A DNA stretch of 64,000 nt from Norana najaformis. Its lineage: Eukaryota > Annelida > Clitellata > Crassiclitellata > Hormogastridae. The notes below the pieces were generated by a model. That model was given only the letters and a program-made list of their open reading frames with translations, made no database searches and was not told where the DNA came from. Shown here one piece after another: positions 12,013 through 63,796 of the stretch (position 1 is the stretch's first letter; every line of letters begins with the position of its first letter). The DNA lies in the NCBI GenBank assembly GCA_964023275.1, contig OZ029914.1:51538530-51602529 (forward strand), read 5' to 3'. Position numbers and translations under genes: made by a program.

Positions 12013-12085
12013 ATGGCAGATCGAAAGAGAAATTCATTGTTAACGATAGCAACTCTTCTGTTAATATTAACTTCTGTCGGAAAAG
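12013..12085 (+). CDS. Gene 1, exon 1: signal peptide
   Basis: The exon encodes MADRKRN followed by a hydrophobic stretch (LLTIATLLLILTSV) and ends GK plus one base, a typical secretory signal peptide of about 24 residues. The donor is gtaagt at 12086 and the exit phase is 1. The paralogous exon at 52348-52420 has the same length (73 nt) and nearly the same protein. An in-frame upstream ATG at 12004 (ATG CTC AGC ATG) would add three residues; gene 2 also has an in-frame upstream ATG, so either start is possible. The start was chosen on the shared MADR. Confidence 0.8.
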
Positions 12086-13281
12086 GTAAGTAGAGTTAAT
12101 CTATTGTCGCCCAAAGAGGCATTTTAAACCGATAGGCCTAAATGTTTGAGTGTTGCTAGTTTTATGAAAGATGATTGCTTATCCGGCGTAACTTGTATAA
12201 TAGTATAATGTTATCGTTGTCTGGGTCTAATCGGTTTAGGACTAACTTCACCTAAAACGAAACACACAAATAGGTCAATATGCCGATCCATTCGAAAGTG
12301 TTTAACATAAGGAAAGGTAGATTAATCCCTTGTTTGCCCCATATCTCTTTCTATAGCAGTTTTCAGAAGCAAATGTTCCTTGAGCTGCGGATATAATTAT
12401 GTATGCTGAATCTCACACATACACACTTTGACATGGGAAAGGGTGCTGCCACCGATGGTGAGGTATAGCGGCTTTAGTGCAGGTAGGGCGAGAAGGCGAA
12501 AAACACCAAGTGTTTTCAAACCGCTATTTTATATCTAAAAGACATATGCACTTGTTAACACGTTCATTGACCATCGACTAACGAGGAATCGTGTACATGC
12601 GGAAGAGAAATAGACGTAGCATTTAGAAAGATGACCAGGATAATTATGGAGTAGCCGGGAATTAACAGAGAAAACAAAGGCAGCTTATATGAGATGATGC
12701 AACCCATTTCCTCTTATTGATCGAAATGCTACACACTGAAACAGCTAGATGAGACAAGAATTCCTAGGAAACAAATGATTTGGCTTGGAAACTTGCAAGG
12801 TTCTCTATATTATTAACCGGTTTTCCTTCAATCTGCCAATAGATGCTGAACTATCCAACAGCTGCCTCATAATCGCTTCCAGCTTACAACTACGCTCTCT
12901 CCTTGGTCTGACCTGCCCAAGATTCTGTCCTAGAACTGAAACTGACATTAGCAACCTGTCTCTAGCAGATTTGATGCTTAAATTATATTTCGGGCATAAC
13001 CTCTCAAGGCTTGCTGCTTGGCTTTCTGTTCTTCATTGCTAGGTCTCAGTTGATTATTTGCGACCGTCCTCGTCATCATCAACATCATAGTCATCGTCGT
13101 CGTCGTAATCATTCAACTGGTGATAGGCTAAGCATTACCTCACACTAAATGACTAGAGAATCATTCTGTATATTATATATTAATCGCAAAATGACTTACA
13201 AAACTCAATTTTGTGGGGATTTTTGGATTCAGTATTGCAAGCCCTATGGCACTGTAAACAGAGACGTTTGTTTTCATGCAG
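12086..13281 (+). other. Gene 1 intron 1
   Basis: GT-AG intron ending in ttttcatgcag. It holds a TCATCG/CGTCGT simple repeat at about 13063-13115 that is also present before the gene 2 exon (53835-53875). No exon or gene is seen inside; the remainder aligns only patchily with 52421-54038. Confidence 0.6.
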
Positions 13282-13611
13282 GTACATACCAGGATTGCGC
13301 AGCGTTCATGAGAAATATCGCTGTTTACGAGGGAACACTGGATACGCTGTTCAACTGTGCAGCTGGACCCAACGCCTCGGCGTGGGAGGTTAGACCGGCT
13401 TCAGCCGCGTCTACAGCTTATCAAATCACCAACTATGACGACACTGTTAAACCTACTTTAACTGGACTCTACGCATTTAACCAATCCGGTCTAACTGTAC
13501 GCACCGCTACTACAAAGAATACCACAGACGGTCCAATTTCTACTGCAGGATTATACAGAGTGAAATTTCAAGGCACCACCAACATGACTGGTGCCAAATT
13601 AGTTGTCATCC
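13282..13611 (+). CDS. Gene 1, exon 2: Ig-like domain A1
   Basis: This 110-codon exon, phase 1 to phase 1, begins G-TYQDC and ends GAKLVVIR before a gtaagt donor. The fold is read from NIAVYEG (A'-B turn), Trp35 in 'SAWEV', 'QSGLTVR', and the F-G region 'ISTAGLYRVKF...GAKLVVIR'. Unusually, Cys is at residue 6 and at residue 26 in the B strand, while the F strand (GLYRVKF) lacks the Cys found in A2-A4. N-glycosylation sequons are present (NAS, NQS, NTT, NMT). It is the membrane-distal domain of the protein. Its N-terminal half differs most from gene 2. Confidence 0.85.
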
Positions 13612-14726
13612 GTAAGTAAAATAAGTTTAATATACGGTTAGATTGGAACATAATATCTAGGCTGAGGCCTGCGCAATGCTGATGGTCTTTGAAATTGAAA
13701 GATTTGACTCCACTAATATGCCTGCTAATATAATAAAATTAATTTCTTTCCCTTGAAATAAAAAGCGCATGAGCGCCATATATGAGATTCGACTAAAATA
13801 TTTCGGTTGAATATTTGCGATTTGAAAAGTCGCAATATCAAGTAAATCGCCGTAGAATAAATATATATATATATATATATTGCATGAATACTACACTTTG
13901 ATCTTAGCCAAAAGGCCGAGAAGCGACTGACCCCTCCCCTAGGAAGGATTAATTCCAGCCAGAAGGAAGAAGAATATTGCATGGACATTCGCATGTTCAA
14001 GAGAGATCGGTAGACACACTTCCAGTTGCGTCGGTGACATGTTTAGTCGAGCGTGCAGTAGCTGGAGGAAAATTGAGGTGGCATTGTATATCGAGAACAA
14101 GGAGGTAAAGTCCTTAAAGAGCAGGCAATCTTTGCAACATCATAAGCCCCAGCGGGTCTGAAGCGCAACCCTGGAAAACCAACGCATTTTAAGCACTTAG
14201 TATGAACTGAGCACAAATGTACAACATTTGATTCTCTGTATTGATGTTCGCATCTATCGGCAGAGGAAAATTGAGAGTCATCATATGAGAGGTAGTTGAT
14301 ACCTAAAACATCGAATTGGATCTTCACGAATTCTAAGAGTTATAAGCGTGATGTTATGGTTTTAACCTTGGCCTCATGGTTTCAGGAACAAGGACGTCCA
14401 GCCAGCTACGCCTAGAATACACCCAGAGAGCCGCCAGTTAGATACTTTAAGGGTATTTCTTATCCATTTAAATTCTGTTCATAAGCTCTTTTGATAGGCT
14501 GGCATGGAGCTGATGACATTAAGTAAACGAATCACATTAGGACTTGTGATAAAAAAGAATTAGTCTTTGCGGCATCCAAACACTGCAGTTTCAGAAAGAA
14601 GCGTCAGCTTAAAAGCCTAAATGAACACTTATGAACACATTGAACAAATATGAACTTTCTTAAAGTTAAGAGCGGCAGATATATTTTCTTTACTATGATA
14701 TTTTTCGGATCATTTGATTTTTGCAG
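13612..14726 (+). other. Gene 1 intron 2
   Basis: GT-AG intron with an (AT)n tract at 13859-13880, a U2 snRNA fragment next to it, and a stretch around 14060-14400 ('ctggaggaaaattgaggtg') that recurs at about 54787 in the gene 2 intron and in part at 15381. No coding content is recognised. Confidence 0.6.
13888..13926 (-). pseudogene. U2 snRNA 5'-end fragment
   Basis: Read on the - strand from 13926, the sequence matches about the first 38 nt of U2 snRNA, including TCGCTTCTCGGCCTTTTGG and the branch-point recognition GTAGTA. One extra A sits in the 'GATCAAG' stretch. The match stops at the AT microsatellite, so the Sm site and 3' stem-loops are absent. It is a truncated retropseudogene, or the U2-derived head of a SINE. 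The gene 2 intron lacks it, so it arrived after the genes separated. Confidence 0.8.
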
Positions 14727-15044
14727 GTTCTGGTCCGATCTGTTTTTGCAATCAGTTTTCATCTACCGGCGTAAACTTATCATGCACCATAACTTATGCA
14801 GATCATCCAATCACTCCGATAATTCCACTCATGAACTGTACAGCCAATGGACAGTCGTATACGAATGCTACATCACAAAAGACCGCTGTTACTCCCAACG
14901 TAAACAACTACACATTGACCATAACGGTTAACAGCAGCGTACTCGCGGCCTACGATTGCACCGTGACGTTATCTTCACCAAAAAATACCGCTCTATATCC
15001 ATATATTGCAAAGAATGCGCCTGACTTCAACGCAACCTTTACAG
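14727..15044 (+). CDS. Gene 1, exon 3: Ig-like domain B1
   Basis: 106 codons, phase 1-1, acceptor ttttgcag and donor gtaagt. It starts (R)SGPICFC and contains Cys20 (LSCTITYAD), the 'TITVNSS' E strand, and the F-strand YDC, then the family mark AKNAPDF. At the position where other B domains have the core Ig Trp (residue 38, in 'MTW'), B1 has Cys (LMNCTANGQ). It also lacks the terminal 'C-S-T-P-C' pair. Sequons are abundant (NCT, NAT, NYT, NSS, NAT). It pairs with A1 as the outermost two-domain unit. Confidence 0.85.
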
Positions 15045-15704: not shown

Positions 15705-15914
15705 TTTGCCAACAGCCCACAACCATTGCGCCATCAACTACCAAAACTACAACTACGCAGCCACCAACGACAACAACTAAGCCGTTGACGACATCTATTC
15801 AGCAACCAACGACAACTCAGCTGTCGTCTACAACCACTCAGGGAACGACTACAATGATCAATCCATCGAGAACTTCTCCGCCAGTGGAAACTTCTTTGCC
15901 AACAACAATTTCAC
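15705..15914 (+). CDS. Gene 1, exon 4: Thr/Pro-rich spacer T1
   Basis: 70 codons, phase 1-1, beginning (V)CQQPTTIAPSTT and rich in Thr, Pro and Gln, a mucin-like O-glycosylation segment between Ig pairs. Its last ~150 nt, starting around 15760, match the end of the much longer spacer at 23310-24383, including the unusual 'RTSPPVETSLPTTIS' tail. This shared tail marks the edge of the large tandem duplication. Confidence 0.8.
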
Positions 15915-19210: not shown

Positions 19211-19516
19211 CTGTCAAATGTTCAGAGAATATGCAGAATGTCAAGAATATAGCCGTTTATGAGGGACAACTCAATACGATAATGAATCTATCATCTGACC
19301 CACAAGACGTACGGTGGAGTTTTTATCCAACTTCTGATGAGTTAAGCAATTACTTTGTCACGGAATATCCCCAGCTCTACGAAGTTAACCAGACCGGTCT
19401 AATAATAAAGCAAGCGGTAACGACTGACAATGTTTATGGGATATCAACGTCTGGGTTGTACATCGCACAATGTGCTAACAATACGAACAGGACGGGCGCC
19501 AAGTTGCTAGTCGTTC
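19211..19516 (+). CDS. Gene 1, exon 5: Ig-like domain A2 (unit 1)
   Basis: 102 codons, phase 1-1, acceptor gcttttag, donor gtaagt. It starts (P)VKCSENMQNVKNIAVYEG, has Trp in 'VRWSFYP', 'QTGLIIKQ', and ends 'GLYIAQCANNTNRTGAKLLVVR'. The disulfide is expected between the N-terminal Cys and the F-strand Cys, because the B strand (IMNLSS) has none. It is identical in protein to 26979-27284 and differs at only a few residues from gene 2 (61940-62245). Confidence 0.85.
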
Positions 19517-19689: not shown

Positions 19690-19850
19690 AAAATCATTTA
19701 TCGCTGACTGGAGTCTACTACTCAAATTATACCGGTCTAATAATCCTGAAAATAATTGAGAATGGATATCCGATCTCAACTCCAGGATATACATCGCATA
19801 ATTTGCGAACACAACAATAGTACAGGAAGCAAGCTTCTTGTCGTCAGTGA
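19690..19850 (+). pseudogene. Relic type-A Ig exon between A2 and B2 (unit 1)
   Basis: Translation recovers 'LTGVYYSNYTGLIIL' and 'ENGYPISTPGY', then a frameshifted 'QASCRQ' before gtgagt. This matches the second half of a type-A domain such as A3 (ELYYSNRSGLIIR, TENGQPMSTAGLY). The first half and acceptor are lost and stops follow. Copies sit at the same place in unit 2 and in gene 2, so an extra A domain decayed before those duplications. Confidence 0.65.
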
Positions 19851-20058: not shown

Positions 20059-20379
20059 GCAGTGGTCCAATGTGTTCGTGCAATGCGACTTCCTCAACCA
20101 ACGTTCAGCTCACGTGCAGTGTGGTATATGCCGATGCCACCCTCCATCCGATCAATGCTATCATGACGTGGGTAATCAATGGCGTCGTTTACACTACGGA
20201 CACGCCTCAAAGGACGAGGATTGATCCGTATGTGTACGAATCAACATCAACAATTGCAGTAGATAGCAGCGTTGCCGATACCTATGAATGTCTACTGACT
20301 TTCAGTCCAACGACGGACATCCAGTATGCATTCATCGCAACGAATGCTCCGGAGTTTAACGCATCCTGCTCAACGCCAT
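20059..20379 (+). CDS. Gene 1, exon 6: Ig-like domain B2 (unit 1)
   Basis: 107 codons, phase 1-1, acceptor cctaacag, donor gtgagt. It begins (R)SGPMCSC. Canonical Ig features are Cys20 (QLTCSVVYAD), Trp38 (IMTWVINGVVY), and D-x-x-x-A-D-T-Y-E-C ending at Cys78. It closes with ATNAPEFNASCSTPC, which adds two further Cys next to the spacer. Sequons NAT and NAS are present. It is identical in protein to 27827-28147. Confidence 0.85.
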
Positions 20380-20968: not shown

Positions 20969-21034
20969 TTTGCGTGAACAAGACTACTGTGCAACCGACA
21001 ACCACTCAACCACCAACGACGACCACACAACCAA
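20969..21034 (+). CDS. Gene 1, exon 7: short Thr/Pro spacer T2
   Basis: 22 codons, phase 1-1: (F)CVNKTTVQPTTTQPPTTTTQ. It is the minimal form of the spacer. Longer relatives at 23310, 31080, 33749 and 63689 share the N-T-T-V-Q-P-T-T-T-Q-P-P head and, except the 23310 one, the final codon before the gtaa donor. The short length shows how far the repeat array can contract or expand. Confidence 0.75.
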
Positions 21035-21908: not shown

Positions 21909-22226
21909 GTTACTGTTCTCCGAATCTGGAGAACATTGCTGTTTACGAGGGACAACTCGATGTAATAATGAATGTGACAGCTAACCCTCCCAATGTAAAG
22001 TGGAAGGTTTATCCAACGTCGAATGAGTTAGGCGGGAACGATATCACAACTGCTGACGGCACAGTAGATCAATCCCTGGCGGAACTCTACTACAGTAATC
22101 GGAGCGGTCTAATAATACGAAATTCGACAACAACTGAAAACGGACAACCGATGTCAACGGCTGGGTTGTACATCGCACAATGTGCTGGCAATACGAACAA
22201 GACGGGCGCCAAGCTTCTCGTCGTGC
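21909..22226 (+). CDS. Gene 1, exon 8: Ig-like domain A3 (unit 1)
   Basis: 106 codons, phase 1-1, acceptor tattacag, donor gtaagt. Motifs are Cys3 (SYCSPNLE), ENIAVYEGQLD, Trp32 (VKWKVYP), RSGLIIRNSTT, and 'MSTAGLYIAQC' with Cys92, then GAKLLVVR. Cys3 and Cys92 are the likely disulfide. Sequons are NVT, NRS, NST and NKT. It lies 161 bp before its partner B3. It is protein-identical in unit 2 and nearly so at 32343. Confidence 0.85.
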
Positions 22227-22387: not shown

Positions 22388-22711
22388 GCAGTGGTCCACA
22401 ATGTTCATGCAGTCCCGACAATTCCTCTACCAACGTCAACCTGTCATGCAGTGTCGCTTACGCCGATAGCATCTACCATCCGATCCCTGCTGTTATGACC
22501 TGGATAGTCAACGGAGCATATTACACAACGGATACACCTGCTCGGAGTAAGACGGACGGATACGTGTTCGTGGCAACATCAACCATTACAGTTGATGGCA
22601 GCGTTGTCAGTAATTATCAATGTATACTGACATTTGGTGCACCAACAGATATTCAATTTCAATACATCGCGAACAACGCACCGGAGTTTAACGAATCTTG
22701 CTCGACGCCAT
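22388..22711 (+). CDS. Gene 1, exon 9: Ig-like domain B3 (unit 1)
   Basis: 108 codons, phase 1-1, acceptor catacag, donor gtgagt. It contains 'CSCSPDNSSTNVNLSCSVAY', the Trp of AVMTWIVNGAYY, 'STITVDGS', the F-strand NYQC, then ANNAPEFNESCSTPC. It resembles B2 throughout. The A3-B3 intron is only 161 bp, the shortest in the gene, so the pair moves as a unit. Confidence 0.85.
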
Positions 22712-23309: not shown

Positions 23310-24383
23310 TTTGCTTGAACAATACTACTGTGCAACCGACAACCACTCAACCACCAACGACGAGCGGAACACAGCCAATCACTACCACCACGGCAATATC
23401 GACGACCACACCATCGTCAACCACCACCACCATGCCACCAACAACGACTTCTCAAGCGACAACCATTACAACTCAGCGACCAATGACAACGACTAAACCC
23501 TCAACAACCACCACTCAACTCCCAACTACTATTACTCAGCCTCCAACCACAACGGCAAAGCCTCCATCAACGACTACAAAACCTCTCCCTACTACTACAC
23601 AGTCACCAACGACTACAAGTAAAGCTCCAACAACGACTTCTCAATCATCGACTACTACTACTCAGTCAGTAACGACAACGACTAAACCTCCAACAACGAC
23701 TGCTCAACCCGCAACTACTACTACTCAGCCACCTACAACAACAACTAAGTCTCCAACAACGACTACCCAATACCCATCTACTACTCAGCCACCTACAACA
23801 ACAACAAAGCCTCCAACAACGACTACAAAACCTCCAACAACAACTACTCAGCCACCAACCACAACGACTAAGCTTCCAACAACGACCACTCAACCTCCAA
23901 TTACTACTACGAAGCCACCAACGACAACGACTAAGGTTCCAACAACGACTACTCCACCTCCAACTACTACTACTCAACCACCAACGACAACGAGTAAACC
24001 CCCAACAACGACCACTCAACCTCTGACTACAACTCTTCAGCCACCAACCACAACAATTAAACCTCCAACAACGACTACTCAACCTCCTCCTACTACTACT
24101 CAGCCAATAACGACAACAATTGTACCGCCAACAACGACTTCTCAGCCTACAACTATTACTACTCAACCACCAACGACAACAACAAAGTCTCCAACAACGA
24201 CTTCTCAACCTTCAACTACTACTACTCAGCCACCAACGACAACAACTATGCCGTTGACGACATCTATTCAGCAACCAACGACAACTCAGCTGTCGTCTAC
24301 AACCACTCAGGGAACGACTACAATGATCAATCCATCGAGAACTTCTCCGCCAGTGGAAACTTCTTTGCCAACAACAATTTCAC
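23310..24383 (+). CDS. Gene 1, exon 10: long Thr/Pro/Gln spacer T3
   Basis: 358 codons, phase 1-1. The head is (F)CLNNTTVQPTTTQPPTTSG; the body is dozens of PPTTTTQ / PPTTTTK-type repeats, and the tail is shared with T1 (INPSRTSPPVETSLPTTIS). It is mucin-like: expected to be heavily O-glycosylated and extended, holding Ig pairs apart. The tail being that of T1 and the head that of the B3-linked spacers shows it is a fusion made by recombination between two spacer exons. The long - strand frame across it is a by-product of the repeat. Confidence 0.85.
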
Positions 24384-26978: not shown

Positions 26979-27284
26979 CTGTCAAATGTTCAGAGAATAT
27001 GCAGAATGTCAAGAATATAGCCGTTTATGAGGGACAACTCAATACAATAATGAATCTATCATCTGACCCACAAGACGTACGGTGGAGTTTTTATCCAACT
27101 TCTGATGAGTTAAGCAATTACTTTGTCACGGAATATCCTCAGCTCTACGAAGTTAACCAGACCGGTCTAATAATAAAGCAAGCGGTAACGACTGACAATG
27201 TTTATGGGATATCAACGTCTGGGTTGTACATCGCACAATGTGCTAACAATACGAACAGGACGGGCGCCAAGTTGCTAGTCGTTC
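26979..27284 (+). CDS. Gene 1, exon 11: Ig-like domain A2' (unit 2)
   Basis: 102 codons, phase 1-1. It has the same protein sequence as exon 5; I see only synonymous changes (for example cccc/cctc at 'EYPQ'). Borders are gcttttag and gtaagt. See exon 5 for domain details. Confidence 0.85.
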
Positions 27285-27826: not shown

Positions 27827-28147
27827 GCAGTGGTCCAATGTGTTCGTGCAATGCGACTTCCTCAACCAACGTTCAGCTCACGTGCAGTGTGGTATATGCC
27901 GATGCCACCCTCCATCCGATCAATGCTATCATGACGTGGGTAATCAATGGCGTCGTTTACACTACGGACACGCCTCAAAGGACGAGGATTGATCCGTATG
28001 TGTACGAATCAACATCAACAATTGCAGTAGATAGCAGCGTTGCCGATACCTATGAATGTCTACTGACTTTCAGTCCAACGACGGACATCCAGTATGCATT
28101 CATCGCAACGAATGCTCCGGAGTTTAACGCATCCTGCTCAACGCCAT
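27827..28147 (+). CDS. Gene 1, exon 12: Ig-like domain B2' (unit 2)
   Basis: 107 codons, phase 1-1, protein-identical to exon 6 with the same cctaacag acceptor and gtgagt donor. Core residues Cys20, Trp38 and Cys78 are present. The following intron 28148-28736 holds nothing recognisable. Confidence 0.85.
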
Positions 28148-28736: not shown

Positions 28737-28802
28737 TTTGCGTGAACAAGACTACTGTGCAACCGACAACCACTCAACCACCAACGACGACCACACAACC
28801 AA
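28737..28802 (+). CDS. Gene 1, exon 13: short Thr/Pro spacer T2' (unit 2)
   Basis: 22 codons, identical to exon 7, phase 1-1. The following intron 28803-29676 is the copy of 21035-21908. Confidence 0.75.
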
Positions 28803-29676: not shown

Positions 29677-29994
29677 GTTACTGTTCTCCGAATCTGGAGA
29701 ACATTGCGGTTTACGAGGGACAACTCGATGTAATAATGAATGTGACAGCTAACCCTCCCAATGTAAAGTGGAAGGTTTATCCAACGTCGAATGAGTTAGG
29801 CGGGAACGATATCACAACTGCTGACGGCACAGTAGATCAATCCCTGGCGGAACTCTACTACAGTAATCGGAGCGGTCTAATAATACGAAATTCGACAACA
29901 ACTGAAAATGGACAACCGATGTCAACGGCTGGGTTGTACATCGCACAATGTGCTGGCAATACGAACAAGACGGGCGCCAAGCTTCTCGTCGTGC
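29677..29994 (+). CDS. Gene 1, exon 14: Ig-like domain A3' (unit 2)
   Basis: 106 codons, phase 1-1, protein-identical to exon 8. It is separated from B3' by the same 161-bp intron. Confidence 0.85.
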
Positions 29995-30155: not shown

Positions 30156-30479
30156 GCAGTGGTCCACAATGTTCATGCAGTCCCGACAATTCCTCTACCA
30201 ACGTCAACCTGTCATGCAGTGTCGCTTACGCCGATAGCATCTACCATCCGATCCCTGCTGTTATGACCTGGATAGTCAACGGAGCATATTACACAACGGA
30301 TACACCTGCTCGGAGTAAGACGGACGGATACGTGTTCGTGGCAACCTCAACCATTACAGTTGATGGCAGCGTTGTCAGTAATTATCAATGTATACTGACA
30401 TTTGGTGCACCAACGGATATTCAATTTCAATACATCGCGAACAACGCACCGGAGTTTAACGAATCTTGCTCGACGCCAT
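30156..30479 (+). CDS. Gene 1, exon 15: Ig-like domain B3' (unit 2)
   Basis: 108 codons, phase 1-1, protein-identical to exon 9, with silent changes only. The following 600-bp intron (30480-31079) holds no recognised feature. Confidence 0.85.
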
Positions 30480-31079: not shown

Positions 31080-31469
31080 TTTGCGTAAACAATACTACTG
31101 TGCAACCGACAACCACTCAACCACCAACGACGACCGGAACACAGCCAATCACTACGCCACCATTGACGACGACAACAGCACTTACCGCTACCACTACGCC
31201 ACCAGCGACCACCACAACATCGCCTACCACTACCACTAAGCCAGCAACGATGATGACAACATCACTAACCACCACCATTAAACCACCAGTTACGACCCCT
31301 CCATCGCCAACCACTACCACTAGGCCACCAACGACGACAACACCATCGCCAACCACTCTGCCACCAGCGACGAGCACACCATTGCCAACCACCACCACTA
31401 AGTCTCCAACAACGACCACAACACCGCCCTCGACTACCACTCAACTGCCATCCTTGACCACGGAACCAA
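31080..31469 (+). CDS. Gene 1, exon 16: Thr/Pro spacer T4
   Basis: 130 codons, phase 1-1, head (F)CVNNTTVQPTTTQPPTTTG, then TTTTxP-type repeats with Ala and Ser, ending LTTEP plus one base at a gtaaat donor. The head matches T3, but the body and tail differ completely, so this exon marks the right edge of the large duplication. Confidence 0.8.
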
Positions 31470-32342: not shown

Positions 32343-32660
32343 GTTACTGTTTCCCGAATCTGGAGAACATTGCGGTTTACGAGGGACAACTCGATGTAAT
32401 AATGAATGTGACAGCCAACTCTCCCAATGTAAAGTGGAAGGTTTATCCAACGTCGAATGAGTTAGGCGGGAACGATATCACAACTGCTGACGGCACAGTA
32501 GATCAATCCCTGGCGGAACTCTACTACAGTAATCGGAGCGGTCTAATAATACGAAATTCGACAACAACTGAAAATGGACAACCGATGTCAACGGCTGGGT
32601 TGTACATCGCACAATGTGCTGGCAATACGAACAAGACGGGCGCCAAGCTTCTTGTCGTGC
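32343..32660 (+). CDS. Gene 1, exon 17: Ig-like domain A3''
   Basis: 106 codons, phase 1-1. It differs from A3 at two places I can see (SYCFP for SYCSP and NVTANSP for NVTANPP). All core residues (Cys3, Trp32, Cys92) are kept. Confidence 0.85.
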
Positions 32661-32821: not shown

Positions 32822-33145
32822 GCAGTGGTCCACAATGTTCATGCAGTCCCGACAATTCCTCTACCAACGTCAACCTGTCATGCAGTGTCGCTTACGCCGA
32901 TAGCATCTACCATCCGATCCCTGCTGTTATGACCTGGATAGTCAACGGAGCATATTACACAACGGATACACCTGCTCGGAGTAAGACGGACGGATACGTG
33001 TTCGTGGCAACTTCAACCATTACAGTTGATGGCAGCGTTGTCAGTAATTATCAATGTATACTGACATTTGGTGCACCAACGGATATTCAATTTCAATACA
33101 TCGTGAACAACGCACCGGAGTTTAACGAATCTTGCTCGACGCCAT
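32822..33145 (+). CDS. Gene 1, exon 18: Ig-like domain B3''
   Basis: 108 codons, phase 1-1, differing from B3 by one visible residue (IVNNAPEF for IANNAPEF). Cys20, the 'MTW' Trp, and the NYQC Cys are present. The following intron 33146-33748 is the usual post-B intron. Confidence 0.85.
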
Positions 33146-33748: not shown

Positions 33749-33934
33749 TTTGCGTGAACAATACTACTGTGCAACCGACAACCACTCAACCACCAACGAC
33801 GACCGGAACACAGCCAATCACTACGCCACCAACGACGACCACACCATTGCCAACCACCACCACTAAGCCACCAACCACGACCACAACACCTCCCACGACT
33901 ACCACTACGCCACCAACGTCGACCATAGTACCAA
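33749..33934 (+). CDS. Gene 1, exon 19: Thr/Pro spacer T5
   Basis: 62 codons, phase 1-1, head as in T4, then PPTTTTT-type repeats, ending TSTIVP plus one base before gtaatt. The start of the following intron still resembles that after T2, but similarity is lost after about 33960. Confidence 0.8.
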
Positions 33935-34924: not shown

Positions 34925-35254
34925 GTTCGATTGCTCCATGTACGGCGACGCTCAAGAACATCGCCGTTTATGAGGGAGATCAGAATACATTAATATATTT
35001 TCCAGCTGACCCTAACGGCGTTCAGTACACGGTTACTCCAACCGCGGATGAGATTCAAGAATACACAATAGTAAATTATGACGGCACAGTAGATCCTTCA
35101 CTGGCGGGAGACTATGCAATCAATTCGTCCGGTTTAACAATAATTAACGCAACAACAACGGCTGAAAATGGACATCCGATATCAACGGCTGGGTTGTACA
35201 AGGTACAATGCGCCGGCCAAACCGAAAGACAAGGTTTCAAAGTTCTTGTCGTGC
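34925..35254 (+). CDS. Gene 1, exon 20: Ig-like domain A4
   Basis: 110 codons, phase 1-1. It starts (S)SIAPCTATLKNIAVYEGDQ, has 'NSSGLTII' and ends 'ISTAGLYKVQCAG...FKVLVVR'. The pattern matches A2/A3 (N-terminal Cys plus F-strand Cys), but the core Trp position reads Tyr ('VQYTVTP'). It is the most diverged A domain of gene 1 and the one nearest the membrane. Confidence 0.85.
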
Positions 35255-37240: not shown

Positions 37241-40200
37241 GTCAGTTTTGCCATCTGGTTATTCACTCCGCCATGCTGATTATATAGATACAGTGCAGGT
37301 GGTCTTTGCAACCAGTAAGTAAACATCAGTTTATTTGTCAGATTAGTGTTATTTTAGTTTGCGTTTCAGTTGAAAGATCACCCACAGCAACAAAGTTACA
37401 CTTTTTAGAGCAAATCAGGTCAATTTCACATGGTTCCATCCGATTTAGCACAATGTAGACCGATTTCAAAGCCAGAGCTTTATTAAAGCGTTGGCTGACT
37501 GTGAGGCATTATTCTGACGCAGTGAAATGCGAAACCTTTATTGCAGCACGAACTCTATGGTATACTCACCACTTAAATGAATATTGAGCGCAATCTCTAA
37601 TATGTGTTCTGTTCTGGAATTGGTTTTGAAGATTCTGCTCTGACGACTTTGGAAATTGTACTGATTGTTGTTTTCGGATGTTCGCTTTCTGACCGGTCTA
37701 GCCTTCATTGTTTGGTGTTGTCGGTTCTGTTCTAGAGGGAAGCAGTTTAGATTTAGACGCTTTCATTGGTAAATATGATTTAAACACGTCATCACTTATC
37801 ATAAGAATATCAGTTGTTTTCCTAGTATATGACTTATTATTTTGAGTGGAAGCTAAATAAAAGCAGTTGCACCAGTTGCAATCATTGTGGACGTTTTCGC
37901 TATTCACTCTCTCCCGTAACATATTAAGAGTAAAAGAAGAATTTCGTACCATAATGCAATAAACATGATTAAAACTAGCATGCTCTAAAACCTACTGAAA
38001 AAGCCCTATGACAAGAATTTCTGCACTTTTAATTATTATCAGTGGCCCTTTTGGATGTCACCTATGACACAAAATCTCGAATTTCTTGACATTGTGTTGC
38101 GAAAACGATGCATCGTATTTGTATGAGCATCTCCTAAGAAGCAGTTACGCTACATAATAGTTTCTATTTTTTGTCGGTAGGAATAGCCGTGAGAGTTTTG
38201 ATTCCTACAGTGCATGGGATTACAGTTTGGAAAGAAGACAGAGACTCCAAATGCCAATAAATCGTTCTTGGATGTTATCTTCCAATTCCTTTAATTCGCA
38301 TGAAATGCCGTACGACTTTCGCTTCCCTCGAACAGATCTTCGGCTGAAATTTCGTTACACGCGTCCTTGGGTTTAGGCAGAACAAGAGCACTAACGACTA
38401 ACACTAAACAGAACAAATGTTCTTCTGAGATTTTTGCACATTAGCTTAGAACATCGTCTTTAACGCGGGTCTGTAGATATATAAGGTTAAAGCTTGAAAC
38501 CTCAGCTTCCACTTATAGCAGATGAATTTAATAACGCATTGTGCTGAATAATAAATAATAAATTCTAAGGATAATAATTTTTTTAAAGTTATTCTGTTAA
38601 GCCTAAATGATTGTCTGCTCACAGAAACTTGAAGCCACCAAAAGAGACATGGTATACGAGAAAGGTGATATAGTTGCATATGGTTTTGTATCGTTGGCCG
38701 ACATTGCCAGTTTTATTAACCATAATCCGACACTTTAATGATAATCAGGATATTCTTTGTTGATTTGTTTGAACATCTGTTTTACAGCCAGCTTTCTTGA
38801 TTAATAAAGACTCGACATTTGCACACGTATTTTATCAGTTCCACGTTCAAGCCTAGCTTTTAACAGAGGCTTATTTATCAGAAATAACTTTACAGCAGCC
38901 TACAGTCGGACTCCACGTAGACCACATCAGACACAAATTGCGACCATAATAATAGTTCAATTTAGAAGAAGTTAATTTAAAACTGATTTACCCAAGACAG
39001 ATGAATTAAACGTAGCAGCAAGCTGTAGAAAGAAGATTTATTTCATGAACACAGTGGCCTTTAAACAGGTAAAGATCACACAGCTTCTGGATTTAACGTG
39101 TCTTTTCGTGGCTTTAACGGTTATAAAATTCACATTTATTTTCCTAAAACTTGTAATTATACCTTTATTATTAGATTCTTAACATAGCTGTGTGAATTAT
39201 ATCTGCATTCTCATCCAAAAGCCATAGACCTAGGACTATAGGTACTTTATTATTTAACGTGTAACTTACTAGAATATAATTTTTCTCTTGTCTGGTTGGA
39301 TGAACATAGCACAATTAGTGGCACCCATTAAACGAGAATTTCAGTGATGATTTGTGATCTGACAACCGTGGACATCACGTGTGAATGGATCTGCAAACAA
39401 TGGCATGACTTGTTCGCTCGACGCCCAAATTAATGTTTTTTAATCAAAAGAGCGAACAGTGTTGACGAAATCCTTTGGCGTTTCAGTGCGAGTCTTTCGG
39501 ATGCATTTCACGCATGCAAAGTAATGCAACGAGCATAATCGAGGAAGAACTGTTTCAACGGTATCCCTTTCATTCAAATTTTGTGGGTTTAAGCGGGTTT
39601 CACTGTGCTTGGACCTTGAAATAGTCATTTAAGCAAGCATAATTTGACATATACGATGCCTTTTGAGTCCATATTCAGCATGCTACTAGTCCTTTTAGAC
39701 GCTAAGGCAGCCTTTGAGGTGGTGGTGTATAATCATGGATCATCATATGTTACACACATGCACACACATACACATATATATTTATTTATTTATACCATAG
39801 GATTATGCGGATCTCTAATAGCGTTCCATTTATTGTCTGTGAAATAAAATTCGCCATCCGGGATCTTAGTGTAGTACTAAATGAAAAAGTTTAAGTCTAT
39901 AAATGGTCGTTCATGCCAATGCTTTCGGCAAATTCTGGGTCACGTTTCTCTTTGTTTCAATATGAATCGATAGCCAACCAACTTGGCGTTTCAAAGCTGC
40001 AATCTCTATGTAATGAGTTAAAATAAAATATAGAGTCCATTGTCAGCTTTGTCTAATGCCGCACTCAACGATAGAGACTGACTGTGGATGTGATGATTGA
40101 ACCAAATATATCGAAGTTTTCTTTCAGAATGGCTGTACGAATAAAGTCGAAGGCACATTGCTTACCAGGGAATGAGTAAATGAGGTCACGAGCCTCAGTC

Positions 40201-43359: not shown

Positions 43360-43509
43360 GTGCCGGGACTGTAAAGTCGGTCTGTTGAAGCCAGAGATTA
43401 TACTCGATGCCATCTTAACATGCCTTCTGGCGGCCACTGCTGTCCTCGGCTTCTGCTGCTGGTGCCTTGCATACTTCTGCCCTCTATACTTAACAGACAC
43501 AAGACCTCG
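43360..43509 (+). CDS. Candidate transmembrane exon of gene 1
   Basis: Acceptor tttttgacacag and donor ggtaaat enclose 150 nt that are open only in phase 2 (one base to finish a codon, then 49 codons). The product is CRDCKVGLLKPEIILDAI followed by a 20-plus-residue hydrophobic stretch (LTCLLAATAVLGFCCWCLAY) and FCPLYLTDTRPR, a good single-pass helix flanked by Cys residues that could be palmitoylated. The stalk exon ends in phase 1, so a linking exon (phase 1 to 2) is required or this belongs to another transcript. No cytoplasmic exon was found before the transposon at 44252. Confidence 0.45.
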
Positions 43510-43611
43510 GTAAATTCTCATTCTGTCTAAGCAGATTTCTAAGACGCTTTGTTTAGTTTTCAAGCAGATATAATTACAAAAGATTCATAATTACAGCATT
43601 CCATTCACTAC

Positions 43612-52282: not shown

Positions 52283-52347
52283 ACTGTTGTTTGTGCACAG
52301 TGATAGGATTGTGACGTGGAAACAAATTGCTACAGATGTTTCTTACC

Positions 52348-52420
52348 ATGGCTGATCGAAGCAGAAACTCATTGTTAACAACAGCAACTATTTTGTTAAT
52401 ATTTGCTTCTGTCGGAAAAG
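52348..52420 (+). CDS. Gene 2, exon 1: signal peptide
   Basis: 73 nt, exit phase 1, donor gtacgt. It encodes MADRSRNSLLTTATILLIF and ends SVGK, a close match to gene 1 exon 1 with a normal secretory signal core. An in-frame ATG at 52336 would add MFLT. It starts a second complete copy of the gene that continues past the window. Confidence 0.8.
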
Positions 52421-54038: not shown

Positions 54039-54365
54039 GTACATATCAGGAATGCGTGACGTCCCTAAGAAATATCGTCGTTTATGAAGGAACAATGAAT
54101 ACGATGTTTGCCTGTTCAGTTGAACCCAACGTCTCGGCGTGGGAGGTTAGACCGGCTTCAATCGCGTCTACAGCTTATCAAATCACCAAATATGACGACA
54201 CTGTTAATCCTACTTTAACTGGACTCTACACATTTAGCCAATCCGGTCTAACTGTACGCACCGCTACTACGAAGAATACAACAGACGGTCCAATTTCTAC
54301 TGCAGGATTATACAAAGTGCTTTTTGGCACCACCAACAAGATTGGTGCCAAATTTGTTGTTATCC
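54039..54365 (+). CDS. Gene 2, exon 2: Ig-like domain A1
   Basis: 109 codons, phase 1-1, acceptor ttttatgcag, donor gtaagt. Like gene 1 A1 it has Cys in TYQEC and a second in the B strand (MFACSVE) and no F-strand Cys (GLYKVLF). The half from SAWEVRPAS to ISTAGLY is nearly identical to gene 1, while the first ~30 residues differ at many positions. Confidence 0.85.
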
Positions 54366-55548: not shown

Positions 55549-55866
55549 GTTCTGGTCCGATCTGTACCTGCGATCAGTCGGTTTCCGATGCCGTCACATT
55601 AACATGTACAGTCACTTATGCAGATCATCCAATCATTCCGATAAATCCAATCATGAACTGTACAGCCAATGGTCAGTTTTACACAAATTCTACATCCAGC
55701 AAGACCCCGATTACTCCAAACGTGTACAATTATACACTGACGATCACGGTTAATAGCAGTGTTCCAGCCACCTATGATTGTGCAGTGACATTTGCTTCAC
55801 CAGTATACAACAGTCTATACCCCTATATGGCAAAGAATGCGCCTGACTTCAGGGAAAACTTTGCAG
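55549..55866 (+). CDS. Gene 2, exon 3: Ig-like domain B1
   Basis: 106 codons, phase 1-1, acceptor ttcttgcag, donor gtgagc. It starts (R)SGPICTCDQ, with Cys in TLTCTVTYAD and YDC. As in gene 1 the core Trp is replaced by Cys (IMNCTANGQ). NAPDF is retained, and the spacer-proximal Cys pair is missing. Confidence 0.85.
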
Positions 55867-56393: not shown

Positions 56394-59300
56394 TTTGCGA
56401 ACTACCAACAACAACGTCGCAAACAACGACATCAACTCAACCAACAACTACAACAACCTCGTTAACGACAAAAACAACGCACCCAACGACGACGACAATG
56501 AACCCAACGACGACAAATACGCCATCAACCACGACCACAACACCGCCCACGACTAAAACTACGCCACCAACCACGACCACAACATCGCCCACGACTAAAA
56601 CAACGCCAACAACGACGACCACAACACCACCCACGACAACCACGACGCCACCAACGACGACCACAACACCGCCCACGACAACCACGACGCCACCAACCAC
56701 GACCACAACACCGCCCACGACAACCACGACGCCACCAACCACTACCACAACACCGCCCACGACAACCACTACGCCACCAACCACGACCACAACACCGCCG
56801 ACGACTACCACAACGCCACCAACCACGACCACAACACCGACCACGGCTACCACTACGCCACCAACCACGACCATAACACCGCCCACGACTACCACTACGC
56901 CAACAACGACGACCACAACACCGCCCACGACTACCACTACGCCACCAACGACGACCACAACACCGCCCACGACTACCACTACGCCACTAACCACGACCAC
57001 AACACCGCCCACGACTACCACTACGCCACCAACCACGACCACAACACCGCCCACGACTACCACTACGCCACCAACCACGACCACAACACCACCCACGACT
57101 ACCACGACGCCAACAACCACGACCACAACATCGCCCACGACTACCACAACACCAACAACGACTATCACGACGTCACCAACGACGACCACAACATCGCCCA
57201 CGACTACCACAACACCACCCACGACTATCACGACGTCACCAACGACGACCACAACACCGCCCACGACTACCACAACGCCAACAACGACGACCACAACACC
57301 GACAACGACTACCACAACGCCACCAACCACAACCACAACACGGCCCACGACAACCACTACGCCAACAACCACGACCACAACACCGCCCACGACTACCACT
57401 TCACCACCAACCACGACCACAACACCGCCAACGACAACCACTACGCCAACAACGACGACCACAACACTGACCACGACTACCACTACGCCAACAACGACGA
57501 CCACAATACCGCCCAAGACAACCACTACGCTATCAACCACGCCTACCACACCGCCCACGACTACCACGACGCCACCCACCACGACCACAACACCGCCCAC
57601 AACTACCACAACGCCAACAACGACGACCACAACACCGCCCACGACTACCACTACGCCACCAACCACGACCACAACACCGCCCACGACTACCACTACGCCA
57701 CCAACCACGACCACAACACCGCCCACGACTACCACTACGCCACCAACGACGACCACAACACCGCCCACGACTACCACTTCGCCACCAACGACGATCACAA
57801 CACCGCCCACGACTACCACTACGCCACCAACCACGACCACAACACCGCCCACGACCACAATACCGCCCAAGAAAACCACTACGCCACCAACCACGACCAC
57901 AACACCGCCCACGACTACCACAACGCCAACAACGACGACCACAACACCGACCACGACTACCACTACGCCACCAACCACGACCACACCACCGCCCACGACT
58001 ACCACTACGCCATCAACCACGACCACAACACCACCCACGACTACCACTACGCCACCAACGACGACCACAACACCGCCCACGACTACCACAACGCCAACAA
58101 CCACTACCACAACACCGCCCACGACTACCACGACGCCACCAACCACTACCACAACACCGCCCTCGACTACCACAACACCGCCCACGACTACCACTTCGCC
58201 ACCAACCACGACCACAACACCGCCCACGACAACCACTACGCCACCAACGACGACCACAACACCGCCCACGACTACCACAACGCCAACAACGACGACCACA
58301 ACACCGACCACGACTACCACTACGCCACCAACCACGACCACACCACCGCCCACGACTACCACAACGCCATCAACCACGACCACAACACCGCCCACGACAA
58401 CCACGACGCCACCAACGACGACCACAACACCGCCCACGACTACCACGACGCCAACAACCACGACCACAACACCGCCCACGACTACCACGATGCCACCAAC
58501 CACTACCACAACACCGCCCACGACTACCACGACGCCACCAACCACTACCACAACACCGCCCACGACTACCACAACACCGCCCACGACTACCACGACGCCA
58601 CCAACCACTACCACAACACCGCACACGACTACCACAACACCGCCCACGACTACCACAACGCCACCAACCATGACCACAACACCGTCCACGACTACCACTA
58701 CGCCACCAACCACGACCACAACACCGCCCACGACTACCACTACGCCACCAACCACGACCACAGCACCGCCCACGACTACCACTTCCCAACTAACCACGAC
58801 CGCAACACCGCCCACGACTACCACTACGCCACCAACCACGACCACAACACCGCCCACGACTACCACTACGCCACCAACGACGACCACAACACCGCCCACG
58901 ACTACCACTACGCCACCAACCACGACCACAGCACCGCCCACGACTACCACTTCCCAACTAACCACGACCGCAACACCGCCCACGACTACCACTACGCCAC
59001 CAACTACGACCGTAACACCACCCACGAATACCACTACGCCACCAACCACGACCACAATACCGCCCACGACTACCACAACGCCAACAACGACGACCACAAC
59101 ACGCCCAACCACTGCCACTACGCCACCAACCACGACCACAACACCGTCAACGACTACCACTACGCCACCAACGACGACCACAACACCGCCCACGACTACC
59201 ACTACGCCACCAACGACGACCACAACACCGCCCACGACTACCACAACGCCACCAACCATGACCACAACACCGCCCACGACTACCACAACGCCACCGACCA

Positions 59301-61292
59301 AGACCACAACACCGCCCACGACTACCACTACGCCACCAACCACGACCACAACACCGCCCACGACAACCACTACGCCACCAACGACGACCACAACACCGCC
59401 CGCGACTACCACAATTCCAACAACGACGACCACAACACCGACCACGACTACCACTACGCCACCAACCACGACCATACCACCGCCCACGACTACCACGACG
59501 CCACCAACGACGACCACAACACCGCCCACGACTACCACGACGCCAACAACCACGACCACAACACCGCCCACGACTACCACGACGCCACCAACCACTACCA
59601 CAACACCGCCCACGACTACCACAACGCCACCAACCACTACCACAACACCGCCCACGACTACCACAACACCGCCCACGACTACCACAACGCCACCAACCAC
59701 GACCACAACACCGCTCACGACTACCACTACGCCACCAACCACGACCACAACACCGTCCACGACTACCACTACGCCACCAACCACGACCACAACACCGACC
59801 ACGACTACCGCACCTCCAGGACCGACGACCACAACACCGCCCACGACTACCACTACGCCACCAACCACGACCACAGCACCGCCCACGACTACCACTTCCC
59901 ATCTAACCACGACCGCAACACCGCCCACGACTACCACTACGCCACCAACCACGACCACAACACCGACCACGACTACTACACCTCCAGGACCGACGACCAC
60001 AACACCGCCCACGACTACCACTAAGCCACCAACCACGACCACAGCACCGCCCACGACTACCACTTCCCAACTAACCACGACCGCAACACCGCCCACGACT
60101 ACCACTACGCCACCAACTACGACCGTAACACCACCCACGAATACCACTACGCCACCAACAACGACCACAATACCGCCCACGACAACCACAACGCCAACAA
60201 CGACGACCACAACACGCCCAACCACTGCCACTACGCCACCAACCACGACCACAACACCGTCAACGACTACCACAACGCCACCAACCACGACCACAACACC
60301 GTCCACGACTACCACTACGCCACCAACCACGACCACAACACCGACCACGACTACCACACCTCCAGGACCGACGACCACAACACCACCCACGACTACCACT
60401 ACGCCACCAACCACGACCACAGCACCGCCCACGACTACCACTACGCCACCAACCACGACAACAACACCGCCCACGACTACCACTACGCCACCAACTACGA
60501 CCGTAACACCACCCACGAATACCACTACGCCACCAACAACGACCACAATACCGCCCACGACTACCACAACGCCAACAACGACGACCACAACACGCCCAAC
60601 CACTGCCACTACGCCACCAACCACGACCACAACACCGTCAACGATTACCACTACGCCAACAACGACGACCGTAACACCGCCCACGACTACCACTACGCCA
60701 CCAACCACTGCCACCACACCGCCCACGACTACCACTACGGCACCAACCACGACCATAACACCGCCCACGACTACCATTACGCCACCAACGACGACCACAA
60801 CACCGCACACGACTACCACTACGCCACCAACCACGACCACAACACCGTCCACGACTACCACTGTGCGAACAACGACGACCATAACACCCCCCACGACTAC
60901 CACTACGCCACCAACCATGACCACAACACCGCCCACGACTGCCACACCCCCAGGACCGACGACCACAACAACGCCCAAGACTACCACTACGCCACCAACC
61001 ACGACCACAACACGGTCAACGACTGCCACTTCCCAACTAACCACGACCGCAACACCGCCCACGACTACCACAACGCCACCAACCACGACCACAACACCGT
61101 CCACATCTTCCACAACGCCACCAACGACGACCACAACACCGACGACGACTACCACTACGCCACCAACGACGACCACAACACCGCCCACGGCTCCCGCTAC
61201 GCCACCATCCACGACCACAACACCGCCCACGACTACCACTACGCCACCAACCACGACCACAACACTGCCTGCGACTACCATTACCCCTCCAG
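56394..61292 (+). CDS. Gene 2, exon 4: giant Thr/Pro mucin spacer
   Basis: A single exon of 4,899 nt (1,633 codons, exact phase 1-1) opens (V)CELPTTTSQTTT and then consists almost entirely of 21-nt units coding PPTTTTT, with Ser, Lys, Arg, Ile, Ala and Met substitutions. Distinct blocks (PPGPTTTTPP, SQLTTTATPP, TVTPPTNTTTPP, TRPTTATTPP) recur in its second half and show higher-order duplication. No stop occurs despite the length, arguing for selection on the frame. The expected product is a densely O-glycosylated rod between the outer Ig pair and A2. The equally long - strand frame (Val/Gly-rich) is a mirror of the repeat and is not a gene. Array length in a draft assembly may be inaccurate. 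Confidence 0.85.
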
Positions 61293-61939: not shown

Positions 61940-62245
61940 TTGTCAAGTGTTCAGAGAATATGCAGAATGTCAGGAATATAGCCGTTTATGAGGGACAACT
62001 CAATACAATAATGAATCTATCTTCTGACCCACAAGACGTATGGTGGAGGGTTTATCCAACTTCTGATGAGTTAAGCAATTACTTTGTCACGGAATATCCT
62101 CAGCTCTACGAAGTTAACCAGACCGGTCTAATAATAAAGCACGCGGTAACGACTGACAATGTTTATGGGATATCAACGTCTGGGTTGTACATCGCTCAAT
62201 GCGCTAACAATACGAACAGGACGGGCGCCAAGTTACTAGTCGTTC
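61940..62245 (+). CDS. Gene 2, exon 5: Ig-like domain A2
   Basis: 102 codons, phase 1-1. It differs from gene 1 A2 at about four residues (VRNIA, DVWWRVYP, KHAVTT). Flanking intron sequence is also very similar, unlike the A1-B1 region. Core N-terminal Cys and F-strand Cys (IAQC) are present. Confidence 0.85.
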
Positions 62246-62429
62246 GTAAGTTCTTCGACTAACATCTCTTGTGTTTTGTATTTCTAGAGTTAAAAAGATT
62301 TTGGATAATCTGGTTGTTTAGACTCCAAATTAGAATTTAATTCATAAACGCCTTTCCATAACTGCTCATTACTACATTCGTAAGGGTTTAGCAAACGAGC
62401 TAGAAAATCACTCGCTGTAAAATGATTTA

Positions 62430-62580
62430 TCGTTGACTGGAGTCTACTTCTCAAATTATACCGGTCTAATAATCCTGAAAACAACTGAGAATGGATATCC
62501 GATCTCAATTCCAGGATATACATCGCATAATTTGCGAATACAACAATAGTACAGGAGCCAAGCTTCTTGTCGTCAGTGAG
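62430..62580 (+). pseudogene. Relic type-A Ig exon in gene 2
   Basis: Same relic, same place as 19690-19850, with the same disruption before gtgagt. It lies inside the intron between A2 and B2. Confidence 0.6.
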
Positions 62581-62785
62581 TAATTTAACTAAACGTATTT
62601 GATGTTCGATATCAAACCTTCAGAAAGACATTGTAAGATGGTAAGGTTTAAATTAACCCTAACCCGAAGAGGAAATGTGCGGTTTCATATGCGAGGCAAC
62701 TCATGGGTTTACATAAATGCCAATGCAGTTAAGCTTCTTTCATTTACAATTATTAGGTAAATATTTTATATTGTGTGCCTAACAG

Positions 62786-63106
62786 GCAGTGGTCCGATGT
62801 GTTCATGCAATGCGACTTCCTCAACCAACGTTCAGCTCACGTGCAGTGTAGTATATGCCGATGCCACCCTCCATCCGATCAATGCTATTATGACGTGGGT
62901 AATCAATGGCGTCGTTTACACTACGGACATGCCTCAAAGGACGAGGATTGATCCGTATGTGTACGAATCAACATCAACAATTGCAGTAGATAGCAGCATT
63001 GTCGATACCTATGAATGTCTACTGACTTTCAGTCCAACGACTGACATCCAGTATTCATTCATCGCAACGAATGCTCCGGAGTTTAATGCATCCTGCTCAA
63101 CAACAT
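62786..63106 (+). CDS. Gene 2, exon 6: Ig-like domain B2
   Basis: 107 codons, phase 1-1, almost identical to gene 1 B2 (changes at TTDMP, DSSIVDTYEC, IQYSFI and STTC). Cys20, Trp38 and Cys78 are conserved. Acceptor cctaacag, donor gtgagt. Confidence 0.85.
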
Positions 63107-63688
63107 GTGAGTGTTTTTCTATATCGCGGAGAAGCATAATTTAAAAGAAAAGAGACAATGTCTAGATTTCTGTTTTATCACATCAAGAATGCGTGAATTT
63201 GTAAAACTATCCAATCCTATGGTCTCAGTACGTTGCCAGCGAATATATGAGTAATAATAATGGCAAATATGCCACAGAAACAATACTTGAGTTGTCATTA
63301 TGTCGTCCGATAAATCGAGCAATACATACATGTTCTGCTCTAATTGAATGTAATTTTAATAAATCTTTTATCATATTCTGGTTAGTAGACATACACAACT
63401 GCGTAGCTGTTACATTTTGAATCGTGTGAGGCTGTATGACTCTTTAATCTCTTGCCAAAACCCTAATTGTGATTGTTTTTTTAATAGACGAAGTGCAACT
63501 ATGTAGAAGAGAATGTGACAGGAGTAGGTTTATGCATAAACTTGAACTTGTGTCACAACGGCAGAGTTAGTGAACTGAGACTCTGTATAACCACTTCCAT
63601 TTGAACATGTTGAAGTAATCGGAGTGCTCTTATATTCATTTAAAATATTAACGTAATGCATGACTTAAAAAACAATGTATTTTTTTAG
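63107..63688 (+). other. Gene 2 intron after B2
   Basis: 582-bp intron homologous to 20380-20968, with no other content. Confidence 0.5.
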
Positions 63689-63796
63689 TTTGCGTGAACA
63701 AGACTACTGTGCAACTGACAACCACTCAACCACCAACGACGACCACAGAACCGCCCACGACTACCACTACGCCACCAACGATGACCACGGAACCAA
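63689..63796 (+). CDS. Gene 2, exon 7: Thr/Pro spacer
   Basis: 36 codons, phase 1-1, head (F)CVNKTTVQLTTTQPP, ending TMTTEP plus one base at gtaaat. It is longer than its gene 1 counterpart T2 (22 codons). The next exon (expected A3-like) lies beyond the right edge; 63797-64000 is the start of the homologous intron. Confidence 0.75.

Follow-up and report, generated by a model that had tools for sequence, protein, structure and literature searches.

What do the tandem genes at one locus of the annelid Norana najaformis encode, and how have their repeated parts multiplied? The window, by which we mean the whole stretch of 64,000 nucleotides analysed, covers positions 51,538,530-51,602,529 of the forward strand of contig OZ029914.1 (C2 in the following), one of the 17 contigs of a 608-Mb assembly (GCA_964023275.1), the one genome sampled. 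A preliminary description of the window, made from its letters, had proposed three head-to-tail copies of one gene plan, each repeating two immunoglobulin (Ig) domains, A and B, followed by a Thr/Pro-rich spacer. The presence of such copies is borne out by tblastn searches in the window, by counts in the whole genome and by spliced gene models. The gene plan, the tandem order, the diversification and the membrane nature of the genes likewise agree with splice-consistent models, genome counts and substitution patterns, while the Ig label gains modest support. The window is one part of a larger tandem cluster near one chromosome end, and its mucin-coding repeats look like crossover sites that have multiplied the A-B cassettes.

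Gene plan, cluster and cassette duplication

The genes of the cluster share one plan: a signal-peptide exon comes first, A, B and Thr/Pro exons then recur, and a transmembrane exon and a short tail close the gene. One module comprises an A, a B and a Thr/Pro exon, and in the last module of a multi-module gene a short linker exon replaces the Thr/Pro exon. Signal-peptide exons of the MADRxRNSLLT...SVGKG type occur seven times in the window and its right flank; the window itself contains two, at 12,013 and 52,348. Four genes were modelled by scripted exon splicing (g2 and g3, which are the second and third copies of the window, and g4 and g6), the models including only the exon types looked for. 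The third copy crosses the window edge, as had been supposed: g3 runs from 52,348 to 75,461 in window-continued coordinates, so that its last exon ends 11.5 kb beyond the window, and its 18 exons encode 3,156 amino acids (aa) with a single terminal stop, comprising five A-B pairs with 1,916 aa of spacer, followed by a single transmembrane exon and a tail. Additionally, g4 (15 exons, 1,905 aa, four A-B pairs) and g6 (6 exons, 468 aa, one pair) are open to their terminal stops, and these three complete models have canonical GT-AG sites throughout. The Kyte-Doolittle mean over 19 residues of the hydrophobic segment is strong in g3 (3.52) and g4 (3.41) and moderate in g6 (1.99). A type I membrane plan, that is, signal peptide, ectodomain, one transmembrane helix and tail in one frame, is thus found in g3 and g4 and in weaker form in g6, as assigned from sequence and hydropathy.

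The second copy (g2, 12,013-38,376) has 24 exons and seven A-B pairs, and its frame stays open for 2,255 aa before a stop in the transmembrane exon. It had been described as near-complete with a possible membrane exon; this exon, at 37,632, is real and the gene extends beyond it to 38,376, but the exon is frameshifted relative to g3 and g4, and the product as assembled would have no proper membrane span. Because the g2 tail exon has kept an open, conserved frame, the lesion probably arose recently, is polymorphic or reflects an assembly error. The first copy is indeed a broken 3′ end, consisting of one B exon with no A exon 5′ of it in the window and no tail match between 3.4 and 12 kb. A Thr/Pro-rich frame at 17,420-17,884 was considered as a further exon of g2 and excluded from the model because it has no in-phase splice sites.

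Module exons are in phase 1 at 72 of 72 acceptors and 70 of 72 donors, in a lenient test that counted any AG or GT nearby in the right phase, and the donor gtaagt is present in all nine A exons of the window. With such exon ends, modules can be gained, lost or skipped while the frame is kept; the number of A-B repeats per gene ranges from 1 to 7 and spacer length, across the four models, from 21 to 1,633 aa. The A exons fall into position classes, of which class II (11 of 11 members, support 0.80), class III (9 of 9, 1.0) and a group at 40 Mb (5 of 5, 0.94) are clades in the A tree; class I is not, one of its 14 members lying outside the group of the other 13 under the rooting chosen. The multi-module genes g2-g4 end in one pair of transmembrane and cytoplasmic tail exons (TM1 and CY1) and the single-module g6 in another (TM2 and CY2), TM2-like exons being aligned in g5 and g7 as well; a TPY[DE][FY]R[FL]P-like stretch, seen by eye, is common to both tail types. 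Decayed exons lie 3′ of TM1/CY1, namely TM2 in copy 2 and g4, and CY2 in g3 and g4. Their position behind TM1/CY1 suggests an origin of the multi-module genes by insertion of a class II/III unit 5′ of the tail in a gene with one module. CY1 has six matches in the genome, all stop-free, and CY2 also six, four of which bear stops (one of these, at 51,705,659, is full length); the CY2 of g7 has stops. All 12 lie on C2 at 51.23-51.71 Mb, and the tail queries matched this cluster only.

C2 ends at 51,800,131, so the locus is about 200 kb from the contig end; G+C in the window is about 40% outside the giant Thr/Pro exon. In the whole genome there are at least 91 matches to A and at least 88 to B (E up to 0.1; both counts are lower bounds), nearly all of them on C2, which takes the repetition beyond chance. 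Counted from this search, 73 of the 91 A matches span the full length, taken as 98 or more of 100 residues, and are stop-free, and 18 are partial or stop-bearing. The intact matches comprise 55 at C2:51.04-51.72 Mb (54 on the plus strand), six at 36.2-36.85 Mb, seven at 40.2-40.4 Mb, two at 41.4 Mb and one at 42.3 Mb of the same contig, and two on C6. Every tblastn match accepted in the window lies on the plus strand; A accounts for nine full exons and three partial relics, and B for ten exons (three extra rows at E 0.019-0.3 were disregarded), with identities of 42-99% to the reference A and 39-64% to the reference B (seven exons aligned of each). A Thr/Pro exon lies 3′ of eight of the ten B exons; of the other two, the final B of copy 2 precedes the short linker exon, and the orphan B at 3,110 precedes a linker-like stretch. 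Elsewhere in the cluster, at C2:51.202-51.222 Mb, there is a tandem array of A-B units of 2,239 bp each, with a spacer of only about 20 aa as judged by eye; in the 9 kb fetched, a comparison offset by one unit has no differences beyond position 1,417 of the fetched piece, and the array could be a recent amplification or an assembly artefact. A more distant B-like exon is present near the contig end (255870-256187, window-continued).

Self-comparison of the window indicates how cassettes have multiplied. The segments 15,745-17,109 and 24,214-25,582 are 97% identical, 17,812-23,440 and 25,581-31,204 are 98.6% identical, and 20,996-23,448 and 31,431-33,881 are 94% identical. All eight outer edges of the two internal duplications of g2 fall inside Thr/Pro spacer exons, which make up 1,992 of the 22,800 bp (8.7%) of the interval, and three more edges of a related block (28,764-31,249 / 33,918) also lie in spacer exons. 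Additionally, the exon at 23,310-24,383 is a hybrid of two spacer types. Given these outer edges and the hybrid exon, unequal crossing over in the Thr/Pro coding repeats would be the simplest account of cassette duplication, for which the evidence is good but not proof. Several points tell against it: the inner join at about 17.1-17.8 kb (an indel between the copies) and the left edges, 18,567 and 26,328, of a block shared with copy 3 lie outside spacer exons; the eight edges represent two events only; and BLAST may extend alignments through repeats.

Nature of the A and B domains

The Ig label given to both domains has fared differently for each: B is Ig-like through sub-threshold Ig matches and through its local alignment with a profile of Ig exons from this genome, and A mainly through a motif. 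No Pfam model reached its cut-off in the A and B copies scanned. Below threshold, B matched C1-set in three of 17 copies (best E 0.016) and Ig_3 in one (E 0.0068), unrelated families being likewise weak (E 0.03-0.14). When the B profile was compared with PDB sequences, PD-L1 chains were found with a best whole-sequence E of 0.0088 and a best-domain E of 1.2. Against a profile built from eight Ig exons of the same genome, B gives a local P of 4.1e-05 and a global P of 0.4, and A a local P of 0.015 and a global P of 0.032. The value for A means little, since A against B, between which no relatedness is detectable, gives a local P of 0.034.

The motif evidence for A comes from 47 exons. The Trp of strand C is present in 44, and exactly one linker Cys and one domain Cys in 42. 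Both canonical Ig Cys are found in one exon, a divergent copy without the linker Cys, in which Cys, Trp and AGxYxC follow each other in Ig order; 2 of 20,000 shuffles match this pattern, the motif having been picked after the sequence was seen. With moderate confidence, A may be read from its motif as an Ig domain whose disulfide has been relocated. The alternative, that A is an unrelated domain with chance Ig-like spacing and that only B is Ig-like, agrees with the lack of any Ig match for the 17 A copies in Pfam and for the A profile in PDB sequences, and with a local P to the Ig profile little better than that of A against B; the order of motifs in the divergent copy (post hoc as it is) and the Trp in 44 of 47 exons argue the other way, and we consider the alternative unlikely. 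In any case, by these comparisons, B appears weakly Ig-like and A Ig-like by motif only.

A genome search with PF00047 found no match inside the window among the 150 of 1,317 candidates that were scored. Groups of Ig matches among the same 150 lie elsewhere, at C2:10.3-12.8, C15:22.5-23.7, C3:5.39-5.58, C1:63.62-63.64, C13:15.23-15.29, C8:33.09-33.11 and C7:27.21-27.24 Mb.

Substitution patterns and possible role

The ratio of nonsynonymous to synonymous substitution (dN/dS) differs along the genes. For the pairs g2-g3, g2-g4 and g3-g4, it is 1.00, 0.97 and 1.10 in first-position A exons, 0.30, 0.33 and 0.42 in first B exons, and 0.19, 0.18 and 0.50 in the tails; the last B exon gives 0.66 (g2-g3 pair only). 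At dS 0.1-0.3, the genome-wide medians are 0.829 for A (76 pairs) and 0.465 for B (48 pairs). Additionally, predicted loops change faster than the framework in several A classes. Within one gene pair, synonymous distances vary from exon to exon, and the copies may therefore have exchanged sequence.

A recognition or immune role had been put forward for these genes, and a family of recognition receptors would fit the repeated duplication, the membrane helix and the contrast between a conserved tail and a variable head borne on a stalk that is probably glycosylated. We judge the chances to be about even that the genes of this fast-evolving tandem family encode type I membrane proteins whose A-B heads, on mucin stalks, bind a variable ligand. 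The heads would be held off the cell by O-glycosylated rods, the more constrained tail would anchor the protein or signal, and the repertoire would come from gene number, module number, stalk length and divergence of the A domain. With less confidence, we infer that the ligand may be non-self, such as a microbe, a parasite or foreign worm tissue, and that the expressing cells may be coelomocytes or epithelia.

Several observations weigh against this proposal. Last-position A exons (dN/dS of 0.74, 0.45 and 0.71 for the same three pairs) contrast less with the tail, and the contrast itself is weak, as Fisher tests of nonsynonymous and synonymous counts against the tail gave p<0.05, uncorrected, in one of ten comparisons. 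Ratios near 1 can alternatively reflect relaxed constraint. Loop permutation tests by class and loop gave p<0.05 in three of 12, two of these with raised synonymous change; with three of 12 tests only, loop hypervariability was not adopted as proof of positive selection. The membrane exon of g2 is frameshifted, relic exons are common in the cluster, and no canonical immunoreceptor tyrosine-based inhibitory or activation motif (ITIM or ITAM) was seen in the tail on inspection by eye.

It could also be that the stalks are what matters, in a family of surface-coat or gel mucins whose A-B domains serve adhesion or cross-linking in epidermal mucus, cuticle or cocoon and have expanded and diverged mostly neutrally. 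One spacer has 1,633 aa and is about 92% Thr and Pro (67.5% and 24.2% in the 1,639-residue frame at 56,390-61,306), the linker Cys and domain Cys of 42 of the 47 A exons could serve cross-linking, and dN/dS near 1 in the first A exons is compatible with relaxed constraint. However, the transmembrane segment and, for two of the three pairs, a tail dN/dS of 0.18-0.19 speak for membrane proteins whose tail has a function, and spacers of down to about 20 aa show that a long mucin is not essential. We regard the mucin explanation as rather unlikely.

Reproductive proteins typically show rapid divergence, tandem copies and length-variable repeats, and the same features in this cluster would be expected if its proteins served recognition between gametes or mates in a hermaphrodite and owed their diversity to sexual conflict, not to defence. 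Nevertheless, the Pfam scans of A and B copies gave no gamete-protein family and no datum points specifically to reproduction; this explanation appears quite unlikely. A highly improbable view is that of a decaying repeat region, in which an old gene family, largely non-functional, is retained as tandem copies: the frameshifted g2 membrane exon, the partial A relics, the 18 partial or stop-bearing A matches of 91 and the stops in four of six CY2 matches agree with it, but 73 intact A matches, three complete open genes and six stop-free CY1 tails of six do not.

Within the proposed recognition family, a more specific scenario would make the cluster a polymorphic graft-rejection locus, in which individuals vary in gene number, module number and stalk length and the Thr/Pro repeats act as a germline generator of diversity through unequal crossing over; we hold it to be very doubtful. 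Reviews describe allograft rejection in earthworms as weakly specific and of short memory (PMC2248247, PMC13295531), and the allograft passages of these two sources name no receptor. The existence of such rejection also counts in favour of the broader recognition proposal.

Exon map and comparison with known systems

Table 1. Features of the window by position; rows of A and B exons rest on tblastn in the window and the splice-phase test.
Feature	Position	Strand	Remarks
~1.1-kb direct duplication at the left edge	1-1093 and 1381-2476		99.7% identity
Orphan B exon, copy 1 (3′ gene remnant)	3110..3424	+	59% identical to the B exon at 35.7 kb; not preceded by an A exon in the window
Open 354-aa frame between copies 1 and 2	7665-8729	+	RVT_1 (E 2.1e-20), retroelement remnant
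Copy 2 signal-peptide exon (MADRKRNSLLTIATLLLILTSVGKG)	12013..12085	+	Phase-1 end; same exon 7 times in window and right flank
Copy 2 module 1 A exon	13282..13611	+	Class I (first position)
U2 snRNA-like sequence, intron between A and B of module 1	13801-13927	-	51.3 bits (gathering 46), possibly a retro-copy
Copy 2 module 1 B exon	14727..15044	+	
Copy 2 module 1 Thr/Pro spacer exon	15705..15914	+	70 aa; holds one duplication edge
Copy 2 module 2 A exon	19211..19516	+	Class II
Partial A relic lying between the A and B exons of copy 2 module 2	19701..19787	+	Similar relics at 27,469-27,555 and 62,424-62,516
Copy 2 module 2 B exon	20059..20379	+	
Copy 2 module 2 Thr/Pro spacer exon	20969..21034	+	22 aa
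Copy 2 module 3 A exon	21909..22226	+	Class II
Copy 2 module 3 B exon	22388..22711	+	
Copy 2 module 3 hybrid Thr/Pro spacer exon	23310..24383	+	358 aa; resembles the 31.1-kb exon on its left and the 15.7-kb exon on its right
Copy 2 module 4 A exon	26979..27284	+	Copy of module 2
Copy 2 module 4 B exon	27827..28147	+	
Copy 2 module 4 Thr/Pro spacer exon	28737..28802	+	22 aa
Copy 2 module 5 A exon	29677..29994	+	Copy of module 3
Copy 2 module 5 B exon	30156..30479	+	
Copy 2 module 5 Thr/Pro spacer exon	31080..31469	+	130 aa; holds two duplication edges
Copy 2 module 6 A exon	32343..32660	+	
Copy 2 module 6 B exon	32822..33145	+	
Copy 2 module 6 Thr/Pro spacer exon	33749..33934	+	62 aa
Copy 2 module 7 A exon	34925..35254	+	Class III (last position)
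Copy 2 module 7 B exon	35752..36081	+	
Copy 2 short Ala/Pro/Gln linker exon	37130..37240	+	Before the membrane exon
Copy 2 transmembrane exon TM1	37632..37768	+	Frameshifted versus intact paralogs; internal stop
Copy 2 cytoplasmic tail exon CY1	38181..38376	+	Open, terminal stop; dN/dS 0.18-0.19 to the two paralogs compared
Relic of second-type transmembrane exon TM2	43370..43520	+	Frame lost (by eye on the alignment)
Open 354-aa frame between copies 2 and 3	44817-45881	-	No Pfam match at E up to 0.01
Copy 3 signal-peptide exon	52348..52420	+	
Copy 3 module 1 A exon	54039..54365	+	Class I
Copy 3 module 1 B exon	55549..55866	+	
Copy 3 module 1 giant Thr/Pro exon	56394..61292	+	1,633 aa; 21-bp repeats
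Copy 3 module 2 A exon	61940..62245	+	Class II
Copy 3 module 2 B exon	62786..63106	+	
Copy 3 module 2 Thr/Pro spacer exon	63689..63796	+	36 aa; gene continues past the window

Outside the cluster, the erythrocruorin-linker family has 29 matches in the genome, as befits an annelid, many of them in tandem at C5:36.7-36.9 Mb. The best exon matches haemoglobin linker L1 of PDB 2gtl with E 1.4e-54, compared with 5.2e-46 for 4u8u, entries that we take to be from Lumbricus terrestris and Glossoscolex, respectively. At 412 kb and 571 kb of C15 there are COX1-like pieces with standard-code stops, probably nuclear copies of mitochondrial DNA.

Vertebrate TIM (HAVCR) and MAdCAM-1 proteins consist of one or more Ig domains, a Thr-rich mucin stalk, a transmembrane helix and a short tail, and the likeness to the genes described here lies in this Ig-on-stalk plan. 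By contrast, the Ig-like pair is repeated here up to seven times, with stalks of up to 1,633 aa between the pairs, and neither name was among the PDB-sequence matches of the A and B profile searches. TIM proteins have a single N-terminal IgV domain with extra conserved disulfides, whereas the ectodomain here is an A-B pair, repeated in g2-g4, with a different cysteine pattern. The Alr genes of Hydractinia are also tandem and of type I membrane plan, and share with this cluster the arrangement of clustered Ig-type genes; Alr genes are not known to have repeated Ig pairs set apart by long mucin exons rich in Thr and Pro. They differ in being cnidarian and in having allorecognition as their role, and they are likened here by description. 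PMC11999971 describes Alr as a cluster of immunoglobulin superfamily (IgSF) genes with unusual features and 41 members. Alr, TIM and MAdCAM-1 may serve as the nearest working analogies and are not relatives by any test made.

Other diversified systems share fewer of these features. According to PMC12074976, gastropod FREPs are diversified lophotrochozoan proteins that, like those considered here, have N-terminal IgSF-type domains; they are soluble and end in a fibrinogen domain, whereas g3, g4 and g6 end in membrane and tail exons without a fibrinogen exon, in models that cover the exon types looked for. The same source presents arthropod Dscam as a large IgSF membrane protein with many homologous Ig exons, and in this respect the cluster resembles it. 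However, Dscam chooses one exon variant at each of several positions, whereas the modules of the cluster, in the gene models, are serial and joined in frame. Dscam also carries fibronectin type III domains. Polymorphic mucins, for their part, share long 21-bp Thr/Pro coding repeats whose length varies between paralogs, but the repeats of the cluster separate Ig-like cassettes and coincide with the edges of cassette duplications.

Among the entries listed in searches of the open full-text literature, no described earthworm Ig-mucin family was found, most subscription papers being outside the scope of this search. What may be new here is the occurrence of serial Ig-mucin cassettes, with coding repeats as likely crossover sites, in an expanded IgSF cluster of recognition type. 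A modular family of tandem membrane-protein genes, in which the tail is constrained and the head changes fast, provides a concrete list of candidates, and the coincidence of cassette-duplication edges with mucin-coding repeats suggests that a disordered stalk may drive the expansion of the domains that it carries.

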